64,000 nt of DNA from Burkholderiales bacterium (GTDB taxonomy: Bacteria > Pseudomonadota > Gammaproteobacteria > Burkholderiales > SG8-41), in contig JAIETP010000007.1 of assembly GCA_019744975.1 (NCBI GenBank), positions 1 to 64,000 of the forward strand, written 5' to 3'. The translations under genes and the position numbers were made by a program. Of this stretch, positions 26,625 through 30,583 are shown in pieces. The number at the start of each line of letters is the position of its first letter. Position 1 is the stretch's first letter. The notes beneath the pieces are model-generated. The model saw nothing but the letters and a program-made list of their open reading frames with translations. It did no database searches and was not told the DNA's origin.

Positions 26625-27791
26625 TTATTTGGCCAACTCATGCATCACCTTGATCAAATCCGCTTTGCCCTCAAAGCCGATCCCCGGCAACTCCGGCATG
26701 GTGATCATGCTGTTTTCCACCTTCACGCCGTCCGGGAATCCGCCGTAGGGCTGAAACAGGTCGGGATAACTTTCATTGCCGCCGAGGCCCAGGCCGGCAG
26801 CGATGTTCAGCGACATCTGGTGGCCGCCGTGCGGAATGCAGCGCGAAGCTGACCAGCCGGCAATTTTTAATTCCTGCAGCGTGCGTTCGTATTCACACAG
26901 GCCGTAGGACAGCGCGCAGTCGAACTGCAGCCAGTCGCGGTCGGGGCGCATGCCGCCGTAACGCAGCAGGTTGCGTGCATCCTGGTGGCTGAACAGGTTC
27001 TCGCCGGTGGCCATCGGCCCCGGATAAAACTCCGCCAGTGTCGCCTGCAGCGCAAAATCCAGCGGGTCGCCGGCTTCCTCGTACCAGAACAGCGGATAGT
27101 CGCGCAGCATTTTTGCGTAGGCAATCGCGGTTTCGAGATCGAAGCGGCCGTTGGCATCGACGGCGAGCCGCGCGTCCTTGCCGATTTCAGTGAGTACGGC
27201 TTCGATGCGTCGCCGGTCCTCGGCAATATCGGCGCCGCCGATTTTCATCTTGACCACGCTGTAGCCGCGATTGAGATAACCGCGCATTTCATTGCGCAGC
27301 GCTTGCAAATCCTTGCCCGGATAGTAATAACCGCCGGCGGCATAGACGAACACTTTGGGATTGGCGGTGACGTCATGCTGTTCGGCCAGCAACCGGAACA
27401 ACGGTTTGCGCGCGATCTTGGCGACGGCATCCCAGATCGCCATGTCCAGCGTGCCGACCGCCACGGAGCGTTCGCCGTGGCCGCCGGGTTTTTCGTTTTG
27501 CATCATCGCGCCCCAGGCGCGGTGAGGATCGATGTTGTCGCCTTTTGTGTTGAGCAGGGTCGCTGGATCGGCTTCCAGCAGCCGCGGCGCGAAACGTTCC
27601 CGGATCAGTCCGCCCTGGCCATACCGTCCGTTGGAGTTGAAGCCGTAGCCGACGACGGTGCGGCCGTCGACTTTGACGTCGGTGACCACGGCGACCAGGC
27701 TGGTGGTCATTTTGCTGAAATCAATATAGGCGTTGCGGATCGGCGAGGCGATCGGCTTGGTGACTTCACGGACATCGACAATACGAACCAT
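26625..27791 (-). CDS. tarD: D(-)-tartrate dehydratase (enolase superfamily)
   Basis: A 388-residue enolase-superfamily enzyme predicted to convert D-tartrate to oxaloacetate with loss of water. The sequence closely follows the characterised Bradyrhizobium enzyme as I remember it: IRNAYIDFSKMTTSLVAVVT, NGRYGQGGLIRERF, GGHGERSVAVGTLDMA, the catalytic K-x-K in VVKMKIGG, metal ligands in LAVDANGRFD, WYEEAGDP and MATGENLFSHQDA, and the general acid/base region CIPHGGHQMSLN. The frame is open to 27854, but the ATG at 27791 (MVRIVDVREVTKP) matches the family. It is divergent from a Bug receptor gene 152 bp away, so uptake of a hydroxy-dicarboxylate by that system is a reasonable guess. Confidence 0.9.
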   Translation of the reverse strand: MVRIVDVREVTKPIASPIRNAYIDFSKMTTSLVAVVTDVKVDGRTVVGYGFNSNGRYGQGGLIRERFAPRLLEADPATLLNTKGDNIDPHRAWGAMMQNEKPGGHGERSVAVGTLDMAIWDAVAKIARKPLFRLLAEQHDVTANPKVFVYAAGGYYYPGKDLQALRNEMRGYLNRGYSVVKMKIGGADIAEDRRRIEAVLTEIGKDARLAVDANGRFDLETAIAYAKMLRDYPLFWYEEAGDPLDFALQATLAEFYPGPMATGENLFSHQDARNLLRYGGMRPDRDWLQFDCALSYGLCEYERTLQELKIAGWSASRCIPHGGHQMSLNIAAGLGLGGNESYPDLFQPYGGFPDGVKVENSMITMPELPGIGFEGKADLIKVMHELAK

Positions 27792-27943
27792 GTAAAAACT
27801 TTCAGAGATGGTGGCCGGCGTTGCCGGCGAGGGGGATGGAAATGCAGTCCACATCTTAATTCAAGGCCACGGCCTGTGGCCAGACCGGGGTAAGATTGGA
27901 GTCACAAGAATCACAAAAAATCCTGAAGATTCGCGAGGGCAAC

Positions 27944-28939
27944 ATGTTGAAATCGCATCCATTCGCATGCCTGACCGCATTGTGTGCGGCGCTGTTCATC
28001 ACGCTGTCTGTCAATATGCCGGCAACCGCTGCCGGGCAGTATCAGTATCCGCAACGCCCGGTGCGTCTGGTCATTCCGTATCCGCCCGGAGGCGCCGGTG
28101 ACATCGTCGGCCGCCTGCTCGGCAACAGCCTGGGTGCGGCGATGGGGCAGCAGTTCGTCAGCGACAACCGCGGCGGCGGCGGGCAGATCATTGCCACGCA
28201 AATCAGCGCCAATGCCGCCCCCGACGGCTACACCTTGTTCCTCGCCAGCGCCACACATTCGATCAATCCCGCGCTGCGCAACAATCTGCCTTACGACACG
28301 CTGAAAGCTTTTGCGCCGATCACGCTGGTCGCCGAATCACCGCTGGTGTTTGTGGTCCACCCGTCGCTGAAGGCGGCCAATATCAGGGAACTCATCGCGC
28401 TGGCCAAAACCCAGCCCGGTCGCCTCAATTACGCATCGTCCGGGCCCGGCACAGGCGGCCACATGTCGGTCGAGTTGCTGAAATCACTGACCGGCATCGA
28501 CCTCGTGCACATACCCTACAAGGGTGCGGGTCCGGCGCTGGTCGATGTGGTGGCCGGTCAGGTGCAGATCATCTGCACCAGCCCGCTGCCTGCCATGCCG
28601 CATGTCAAGGCGGGGCGCCTGCGCGCGCTGGGCATGACCAGCCTGCAGCGTTCGCCGGCGCACCCCGATGTGCCGCCGGTCGCGGACACGGTGCCGGGTT
28701 ACCAGTCGACGCTGTGGTACGCCTTGCTGGCGCCGGCCAGTACGCCGCAGGCCATCGTCAAAAAAGTGCATGCTGAAACCGTGAAGGCGCTGGCGGCGCC
28801 GCAGATGCGTGAACAACTGCTGGCGCTAGGCGCAACACCGGTCGGCAACAGTCCGCAGGAACTGCAGAATTTCATGCGCGACGAAATCGCGATGTGGAAC
28901 AAACTGGTGAAGCAGGCCAACATCAAACTGAATCCCTGA
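27944..28939 (+). CDS. Bug-family (TctC-type) extracytoplasmic solute receptor
   Basis: A 331-residue periplasmic binding protein with a signal peptide (residues about 5-29). The hallmark Bug segments are YPQRPVRLVIPYPPGGAGDIVGR (strand and loop 1), VSDNRGGGGQIIATQ, ASATHSINPALR and LNYASSGPGTGGHMSVEL. These receptors feed TctAB-type secondary transporters, often for carboxylates, but TctA/TctB are not nearby, as is common for orphan Bug genes. The frame opens at 27896; the ATG at 27944 with GAGGGC upstream is chosen. The next gene begins 49 bp downstream, suggesting an operon with the selenoprotein. The ligand is unknown. Confidence 0.92.
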   Translation: MLKSHPFACLTALCAALFITLSVNMPATAAGQYQYPQRPVRLVIPYPPGGAGDIVGRLLGNSLGAAMGQQFVSDNRGGGGQIIATQISANAAPDGYTLFLASATHSINPALRNNLPYDTLKAFAPITLVAESPLVFVVHPSLKAANIRELIALAKTQPGRLNYASSGPGTGGHMSVELLKSLTGIDLVHIPYKGAGPALVDVVAGQVQIICTSPLPAMPHVKAGRLRALGMTSLQRSPAHPDVPPVADTVPGYQSTLWYALLAPASTPQAIVKKVHAETVKALAAPQMREQLLALGATPVGNSPQELQNFMRDEIAMWNKLVKQANIKLNP

Positions 28940-28988
28940 TTTGATCCCGGATCTCCCGGGTTTATACCCATTGATTGCAGAGGGCAAC

Positions 28989-29531
28989 ATGACCGCAACC
29001 GTAATGCTGTTTGACCCGACTGCGCCGCGCGGTGGTTCCGCGCAGGCCGCTGCAGTGCCGGCGCAGCGCACTGTACTGGCCGGCGCCGTGATCGGGTTCA
29101 TCGACAATGCCAAGCCCAATTTTCACCACCTCGTTGACGATATCGCCGAACTGCTGGTCAGCCGTTATGGTGCGGCGAAAGTGATCAAGCGGCGCAAATC
29201 CTCGGCGTCGATACCCGCCGATGCCGCGGTGATCGCGGAACTGTCGGGCGAGTGTGACGTCGTCATCGCCGGCTCCGGCGACTGAGGGTCCTGTTCGTCG
29301 TGGAGTGTCCACGACAGTATCGAAGTGACCAAGCAGGGCAAGGCTGCCATCACCGTGTGTTCAACGGCGTTCCTGACGCTGGGCCGCGCCCAGGCGCGCG
29401 CGCTGGGCAACGGCGCGCTGCCGATTGCGGTGATTCCGCATCCCTTTGGCGGGCGCAAACGAGAGGACGTGCGCAAGATCGCCGAACAATGTGTTGATGA
29501 CATCGCCAGACTGCTGAGCGGGGCGGCATGA
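28989..29531 (+). CDS. UGSC-family selenoprotein (in-frame TGA read as selenocysteine)
   Basis: One gene of 181 codons that a standard reading splits in two. From the ATG at 28989, 98 sense codons lead to GSGD, then TGA at 29283-29285, and the same frame continues GSCSSWSVHDSIEVTKQG to a TGA at 29529-29531. The resulting U-G-S-C is the signature of the UGSC (seleno)protein family known from marine and proteobacterial genomes, whose Cys forms carry CGSC. The C-terminal half (LPIAVIPHPFGG) is family-like. The N-terminal half has GAVIGFIDNAKPNFHHLVDDIAELL, giving a predicted alpha/beta fold. U99 and C102 would form a selenenylsulfide, implying a redox role. The last stop overlaps the next start (ATGA). 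The function of the family is not established. selA, selB, selC and selD are not in the window and must exist elsewhere for this reading to hold. Confidence 0.87.
29283..29317 (+). promoter_or_regulatory. Putative bacterial SECIS element
   Basis: Directly after the TGA at 29283-29285, GTCGTGGA (29297-29304) and TCCACGAC (29308-29315) form a perfect 8-bp stem with loop GTG. The loop begins 19 nt after the UGA, within the spacing needed for SelB recruitment in bacteria, and has G at its first position. An alternative pairing, CTGT with ACAG plus CGTGGA with TCCACG, leaves a bulge on the 5' side, as in known elements. The stem lies entirely within sense codons. Confidence 0.75.
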
Positions 29532-30583
29532 GCGCAATACCCGCCGATCGTGCCGCGACTTTCGATGCGCCAGACGATTTGGACGCCATCAACCGCATCT
29601 ACCGCGAGAGGCGCTGGAGCGACGGCCTGCCCATCGTGCCGCCGACTGCGGCGCGGGTTGAACGCATGTTGCGCGGGACCTGCCGCAGCCGCGACGAAGT
29701 CATCGCCAGCGTCGCGCCGGGTTTTGGCACGGCCACGGTTGAGCGCATTGCCATCAACGCCGTGCTCGCCGGCTGCGATCCGGGTGTCCTGCCGGTGCTG
29801 ATTGCCGCGACCGAAGCCGTGGCTGATCCTGCGTTCAACCTGCAGGGCATCCAGGCGACGACCAATCCGGTCGCTGTCTGGTTGGTGATCAACGGCCCGC
29901 TGGCGCAGCAGCTGCAGGTCAACGCCACTTTCAACTGCATCGGCCAGGGCGCCTGGGCCAATGCCACGCTGGGCCGTGCGCTGCGGCTGATCCTGCAGAA
30001 CATCGGTGGTGCATTGCCGGGAGAGATGGACCGCGCGACCCATGGTCAGCCCGGCAAGTACAGTTTCTGCTGCGCCGAGAACGAAGAGGCGCATCCCTGG
30101 CAGCCCTTGCATGTCGAACGTGGTTTTGCCGCGACCGACAGCACGGTGACCGTGGTCGGCGCCGAAGGCACGATGAACATGAACACCCACGCCAAGACCG
30201 CGGACGAGCTGGCGCGGGTGATTGCCGAAACCATGGTGCATCCGCCCAGCAATGAATACGTGCATGGCGGTGAGCCCTGGTTCATCCTCGGATCCGAACA
30301 CGCCGAAATTTTTCAGCGCGAAGGTTGGAACAAGGCGCGGGTCAAACGAGAGTTGTGGCAACGCTCGAAAATGGCGGTCAGACAATTGAGCGTCAACGAA
30401 ATAGAACGCGCGCGCGCTTCGCGTACCCCGGAGCTCGGCACCCTGACCGAAGACACGCTGCTGCCGATTTCACCGCAGCCGGAGGATATCCAGCTGATCG
30501 TCGCGGGCGGCGCGGGCACCCATTCAGTGTACGTGCCGTGTTTCGGCAACAGCCGTGCCGTGACCCGCCGGATTGAAAGCTGA
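29528..30583 (+). CDS. Conserved protein of unknown function coupled to the UGSC selenoprotein
   Basis: A 351-residue, apparently cytoplasmic protein that I cannot name. It begins its conserved part with WSDGLPIVPPTAARVERML, followed by TVERIAINAVLAGCDPGVLPVL, TNPVAVWLVINGP, FNCIGQGAWANATLGRALRL, GKYSFCCAENEEAHPW, TVVGAEGTMNMNTHAKTADE and, near the end, VYVPCFGNS. Several cysteines lie in conserved-looking surroundings, including an adjacent pair (SFCC). There is no signal peptide or membrane helix. The start ATG overlaps the selenoprotein stop (ATGA), so the two are translated together. That coupling suggests they form an enzyme complex or an electron-transfer pair; this is inference only. 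Confidence 0.8.
   Translation: MSAIPADRAATFDAPDDLDAINRIYRERRWSDGLPIVPPTAARVERMLRGTCRSRDEVIASVAPGFGTATVERIAINAVLAGCDPGVLPVLIAATEAVADPAFNLQGIQATTNPVAVWLVINGPLAQQLQVNATFNCIGQGAWANATLGRALRLILQNIGGALPGEMDRATHGQPGKYSFCCAENEEAHPWQPLHVERGFAATDSTVTVVGAEGTMNMNTHAKTADELARVIAETMVHPPSNEYVHGGEPWFILGSEHAEIFQREGWNKARVKRELWQRSKMAVRQLSVNEIERARASRTPELGTLTEDTLLPISPQPEDIQLIVAGGAGTHSVYVPCFGNSRAVTRRIES

Follow-up and report, generated by a model that had tools for sequence, protein, structure and literature searches.

The UGSC (seleno)proteins have been in print since 2008, including a fusion to an unnamed extra domain (Unknown_1), and were the selenoprotein used most often in the nonmarine GOS samples (PMC2398784). 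The accessible text of that paper gives the family a likely thioredoxin-like (Trx-like) fold, as does that of a 2026 paper (PMC13188914), and names neither a function nor an operon partner. Searching the accessible text of the open-licence PubMed Central literature, we met with neither a function nor a partner operon for UGSC, no link of it to GrdB, and no assay on UGSC proteins or on partner proteins. Other described systems that bear comparison are glycine reductase, with its GrdB-GrdE pair, and FarEB. Like the proposed UGSC enzyme they have two subunits and, as we suggest for UGSC, several substrate-specific copies; protein B copies of the glycine-reductase type are described as substrate-specific (PMC10838667). 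The Sec site of GrdB can be aligned with UGSC, weakly but better than controls, and trxB, which is present in glycine reductase clusters (PMC4517662, PMC2897892), occurs in some clusters of both. D-proline reductase PrdB is a further Sec protein, with a stated homology to GrdB (PMC13188914).

The locus compared here lies in a window of 64,000 nucleotides, the whole stretch of DNA analysed, from a Burkholderiales genome (3.69 Mb, 44 contigs, 99% complete). Its protein agrees with the published family in matching both family models (PF24696, NF041046), in its probable Sec within UGSC and in having relatives fused to an extra domain. In contrast to GrdB-GrdE, the UGSC protein gives no direct match to PF07355 (GrdB) and the partner is not detectably GrdE.

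The UGSC gene and its partner

As the original prediction stated, the ATG at 28989 opens 98 sense codons that end at a TGA (29283-29285), beyond which the same frame holds 81 sense codons, the first encoding Gly-Ser-Cys, up to a final TGA at 29529-29531. The UGSC motif comprises residues 99-102 of the read-through protein. We conclude that the gene almost certainly encodes a 180-residue selenoprotein, with UGA 29283-29285 read as Sec with the help of a SECIS hairpin. Taken alone, this is a further member of a family known since 2008; the partner gene (Table 1) and eight other UGSC copies are additions to what had been described for this DNA.

Table 1. Features of the UGSC locus (positions in the window)
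Feature	Position	Strand	Remarks
TctC-type solute-binding protein	27896..28939	+	Start codon as mechanically listed
UGSC-family selenoprotein gene (almost certain)	28989..29531	+	180 residues, Sec at 99, stop included
UGA codon, almost certainly read as selenocysteine	29283..29285	+	Supported by nine own-genome copies, relatives and Sec machinery
SECIS-like hairpin	29297..29315	+	8-bp stem; 3-nt loop GUG at 29305-29307
Partner gene	29528..30583	+	351 aa; start overlaps UGSC stop (ATGA); without Pfam or NCBIfam family

Pfam searches with 27 members of the partner family returned nothing beyond chance (best 0.038), and the NCBIfam search gave a single weak match (0.007) in one member. Pfam includes a family for GrdE, the pyruvoyl-type partner of GrdB, and the absence of any such match weighs against the protein-B-like reading proposed below. 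In 33 of the 34 loci fetched as best matches by the UGSC profile (L011-L044), the partner lies on the same strand within 300 bp, the exception (L017) ending at a contig edge. The partner profile, run against the genomes of 84,980 species, gave at least 589 matching stretches, 544 of them relatives, and UGSC was found in the flank of 73 of the best 80, which were kept. In two of the seven lacking UGSC, L076 and L120, the locus begins at the end of a contig. The five others among the best 80, none at a contig end, count against constant pairing; the partner also occurs without UGSC in Haladaptatus (L191), and without a UGSC match nearby at C3:129799 of the source genome. At the best 80 partner loci, 79 of 83 UGSC matches have a same-strand partner no more than 300 bp away, and 29 of the 83 are fused to it in frame. 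One UGA is present in 78 of these matches and TGC in three (Natrialba asiatica, a Sphingomonas MAG and a Binatia MAG), while two, both fused, have neither.

The Unknown_1 domain of the fusion reported in 2008, as described in the available text of PMC2398784, is likely to be the present partner. Fused and split forms are interleaved in a tree of 115 UGSC proteins (11 changes, bootstrap 10-13), of which the well-supported branches force only two changes; the well-supported group of 21 that contains the window's protein has 11 split and 10 fused members. No relative of the partner turned up when viral contigs were scanned, and phage records searched with UGSC gave no match. Sequence searches of the PDB with partner and UGSC returned weak matches only, taken for chance, the best (0.0088) being to a designed coiled coil. 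Distant, plasmid-borne fused UGSC-partner proteins occur in Sporomusa termitida (L185:4323-6047) and Vibrio europaeus (L193:3368-5053). Both have DMGTS at the site, neither Sec nor Cys, and genes for aconitase X and DUF126 lie near both.

Neighbouring genes and the proposed reaction

Genes for solute-binding proteins of the TctC or TRAP type and for CoA transferases lie near part of the UGSC loci. The TctC-type gene in the window is a possible uptake component of the UGSC operon. At least 150 TctC genes are present in the 3.7 Mb of the source genome (150 of 167 candidates scored), so nearness to TctC is partly background. A same-strand TctC gene lies within about 300 bp of four of the nine own UGSC modules, or five including a weak one (binomial 0.005 for 4/9 and 0.0004 for 5/9, assuming 3500 genes). 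An enolase-superfamily (MR/MLE) gene (26625-27854, minus strand) is divergent from the TctC-UGSC-partner run. Among haloarchaeal plasmid loci, four were opened, with a CoA transferase nearby in all four, a TAXI-type TRAP binding protein in three and a CoA ester lyase in two. A Pfam census of same-strand neighbours, from which TctC-like genes had first been removed (152 of 281 left) and two long ones dropped, found no third common gene; even the commonest family was present in at most 4 of 150.

Thioredoxin reductase genes occur in a few operons. Plasmid records show the orders trxB, TctC, SDR, partner, UGSC in Variovorax sp. SRS16; partner, UGSC, trxB in Roseovarius sp. THAF8; and trxB, trxA, partner, UGSC in Arthrobacter sp. 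ERGS1:01. All three trxB products pass TIGR01292, the Arthrobacter trxA product passes TIGR01068, and all three UGSC proteins are Cys forms. TrxB-like genes below the cut-off lie upstream of UGSC at three alphaproteobacterial/Rhizobiales Sec loci (L105, L115, L129). Among 164 loci, a set in which flanks are often short and many loci overlap, no trxB-like genes occur beyond these six (three real, three TrxB-like), all of which lie within the module gene run.

On balance we think it somewhat more likely than not that UGSC supplies the Sec subunit of an enzyme with two subunits and that the downstream overlapping gene encodes the other. The most likely function, we infer, is that of a thioredoxin-reduced, substrate-diversified selenoenzyme that works like glycine reductase protein B. 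A small carboxylate substrate, delivered by the neighbouring TctC-type uptake protein, would be bound and activated by the partner subunit and attacked by Sec99, located where a helix begins in the predicted flavodoxin/Rossmann-like domain. Cys102 would then resolve the selenium adduct to give a selenenylsulfide, and thioredoxin with thioredoxin reductase would restore the Sec site. Different UGSC-partner pairs would serve different substrates, much as GrdB-GrdE-type pairs divide the reduction of glycine, betaine, sarcosine and fluoroacetate. The trxB and trxA operons, the TctC, TRAP and CoA transferase neighbours, the trxB genes in glycine reductase clusters and the GrdB-like alignment described below are suggestive support for this model.

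More tentatively, it is quite possible that UGSC and its partner represent a class of selenoenzymes not yet recognised, two-subunit and thioredoxin-driven, Stickland-related and multiplied, that break down many dissolved carboxylates reductively. If so, the class would be a distant relation of the Stickland reductases in bacteria and, with Cys, in haloarchaea, and the more than 50 UGA-bearing copies in one genome would be about equal to the total of the largest published bacterial selenoproteomes. The near-constant partner, the predicted non-thioredoxin fold, the possible GrdB link and the trxB operons make UGSC an enzyme that can be assayed.

The same neighbours, which include CoA transferases, a CoA ester lyase and isocitrate lyase/PEP mutase, could also suit a two-subunit carboxylate lyase, transferase or isomerase in which Sec or Cys is a plain nucleophile or metal ligand. 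The two distant fused plasmid members and the two fused proteins among the 83 matches, all four lacking both Sec and Cys there, would fit such an enzyme. We nevertheless consider it unlikely, since all 59 aligned sequences retain the second Cys, at +3, and the trxB or trxA genes of some operons point to redox turnover.

Predicted fold and relation to GrdB

The window's UGSC protein was modelled with a pLDDT of 92.6 from 59 sequences, and the model has five strand-helix units, the third helix starting at Sec99. Foldseek searches against the PDB and viral models gave only weak matches for either domain, mostly of Rossmann or flavodoxin type, and no thioredoxin was among the 50 hits shown. The thioredoxin strand-helix order differs from five strand-helix units. 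The predicted order and the Foldseek result together argue against the Trx-like fold given in PMC2398784 and PMC13188914, and we predict a flavodoxin/Rossmann-like fold for UGSC instead. The fused homologue L063 was modelled from 93 sequences with a pLDDT of 95.5 and a pTM of 0.94, and the window's separate UGSC and partner proteins may dock as the two parts do in that model.

These models bear on the reading of UGSC as a thioredoxin-like general thiol oxidoreductase, with the partner as an accessory protein or protein substrate. The UxxC motif and the fold called likely in the available text of the 2008 and 2026 papers (PMC2398784, PMC13188914) speak for it, but the five predicted strand-helix units and the Foldseek hits count against it, and the 9 to 58 matches per genome beside varied genes fit substrate-specific enzymes better; we regard it as rather improbable.

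The preferred reading, a two-subunit enzyme resembling protein B, gains from a possible remote similarity to GrdB itself. Against it, a direct match to PF07355 was absent from all 59 UGSC proteins at E up to 1. The PF07355 model stops at the Sec codon, probably owing to truncation of its seed proteins at that point, and read-through GrdB-like proteins were therefore built for comparison from 15 loci, of which one holds a full GrdB and the other 14 are of the UPNCTC type. HHalign placed UGSC on the UGTC of GrdB, with a P value of 6.7e-6 (probability 85%) for the whole GrdB-like set and 1.3e-5 (80%) for the Sec domain. GrdB alone gave 9.2e-5 (59%) and the UPNCTC clade alone was weak (0.0036, 9%); the controls (reversed, 39 column-shuffled, partner and TctC) gave 0.019 or worse. 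From these alignments, UGSC is probably distant kin of GrdB, not a member of the GrdB family. A GrdB-like gene with the UPNCTC motif (L139, L180; source genome C3:211584-211799) encodes about 167 residues ahead of the Sec codon and 250 behind it, and has relatives in related genomes.

Reading of the UGA codon and copy number

An open stretch of 81 codons is expected by chance with a probability of about 0.09 (about one in eleven) at the base composition of the window and is not unusual, so homology is the evidence for one gene. Both family models, profiles of the kind recommended as a check, match the read-through protein across the UGA and above their cut-offs: PF24696 with 164.3 bits (cut-off 25) over residues 7-177, and NF041046 with 128.1 bits (cut-off 125, narrowly passed) over residues 32-176. 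In all seven relatives compared, the homologue has TGA at this position and the frame continues. Coding character had been described as unchanged across the codon, and amino-acid identity is in fact higher after the UGA than before it in all seven. For the closest relative (L054) it is 0.73 before and 0.78 after, with third positions taking 0.61 and 0.62 of the changes, respectively. CGSC forms, expected in relatives without selenium, were found, for example in haloarchaea, which are not known to use Sec.

The prediction that annotation would truncate or split such genes was borne out by two of the Sec genes examined. The UGSC gene of Paracoccus ferrooxidans pFER4 is annotated as two hypothetical proteins, the first stopping at the UGA. 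A fused Sec form on an IncP conjugative plasmid of Acidovorax sp. T1 (L181:4431-6041) is annotated for its first 96 residues only, the part before the UGA.

The hairpin after the UGA, with 19 nt from UGA to loop, an MFE of -12.6 and G first in the loop, fits the published bSECIS rules (4-16 bp stem, 3-9 nt loop, G in the first two loop positions, 16-37 nt spacing and MFE at most -7.5; PMC13188914). Mean folding energy dips directly after the UGA over 112 Sec genes (without duplicates and without genes missing the motif or enough flank). All eight stem pairs are formed in 66 of 106 distinct sequences and at least seven in 92; G23 is kept in 103 and U24 in 102. Two of the three pairs with third codon positions on both sides swap between G-C and C-G (74 and 30; 89 and 4), which is compensatory, and the remaining one (15-33) is formed in no more than 79 of the 106 sequences. 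The paired fraction is 0.93; it falls to 0.18-0.50 when partners are slid and to 0.83 when they are drawn from other sequences (200 shuffles, maximum 0.84). Relative to synonymous shuffles, the 112 genes have a mean z of -1.8, compared with -0.17 for a control site. Hairpins taken singly are weaker: that of the window has z -1.28, with 10 of 100 synonymous shuffles as stable, and two other own copies have -0.64 (L012) and +1.07 with a different fold (L051). A strong hairpin is kept in two of three Cys genes (z -2.5 and -1.9; third +0.5), so part of the signal reflects coding constraint or ancestry. The Rfam model SECIS_1 (RF00031) matched nowhere, controls included, and its result is therefore uninformative; cmscan over 28900-29700 gave no match.

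The four Sec genes named as a check on the original prediction are all present in the source genome, each above its cut-off: selA (579 bits), selB (423.9), selC (tRNA-Sec, 75.9; tRNA-SeC is also called by ARAGORN) and selD (420.4). The first three are close together on one contig (C3:244400-251288) and selD is elsewhere (L008, C20:48172-49098). The selD gene itself has an in-frame TGA (GGGUGCK), and SelD, a Sec-making enzyme, is therefore probably a selenoprotein. Nine UGSC-family genes were found in this genome with PF24696, each with one in-frame TGA, the copy on C27 being cut by a contig end. The Sec reading of the TGA, first proposed from the letters of the window, is thus supported by the spanning profiles, the Sec genes and the TGA of seven relatives. 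That the TGA is an ordinary stop, leaving two adjacent ORFs or a decaying gene, is scarcely credible: the chance of an open stretch allows it, but PF24696 and NF041046 span the codon, one UGA recurs in 78 of 83 matches and all nine own copies, conservation does not drop behind it, and the genome encodes the Sec machinery.

PF24696 matched 44 of 399 Burkholderiales genomes, 41 above the cut-off (up to eight candidates scored per genome), and none of 14 control genomes. A relative of the same taxonomic family (G263; 5.7 Mb, 98% complete, 2% contamination) has 58 UGSC-family matches, one below the cut-off, two of which, on C7, resemble halves of one gene. TGA is present in 54 of the 58, and 51 of those 54 have no other stop. 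In the 30 loci fetched from it, U-G-x-C occurs in 32 distinct genes; the other TGA matches are judged by stop count alone. The nearest pairs of U-G-x-C genes are 33-69% identical (duplicate views set aside), so the copies are not a mixture of near-identical strains. Partner matches number 62 in this genome and 10 in the source genome. The largest whole bacterial selenoproteomes given in the available text of a 2026 review have 57 and 63 genes (PMC13188914). With copy numbers of nine in the source genome and 58 matches in the relative, selenium would be an element of major importance to catabolism in these bacteria. Between 17 and 26 UGSC-family matches were counted in each of six further genomes of the order.
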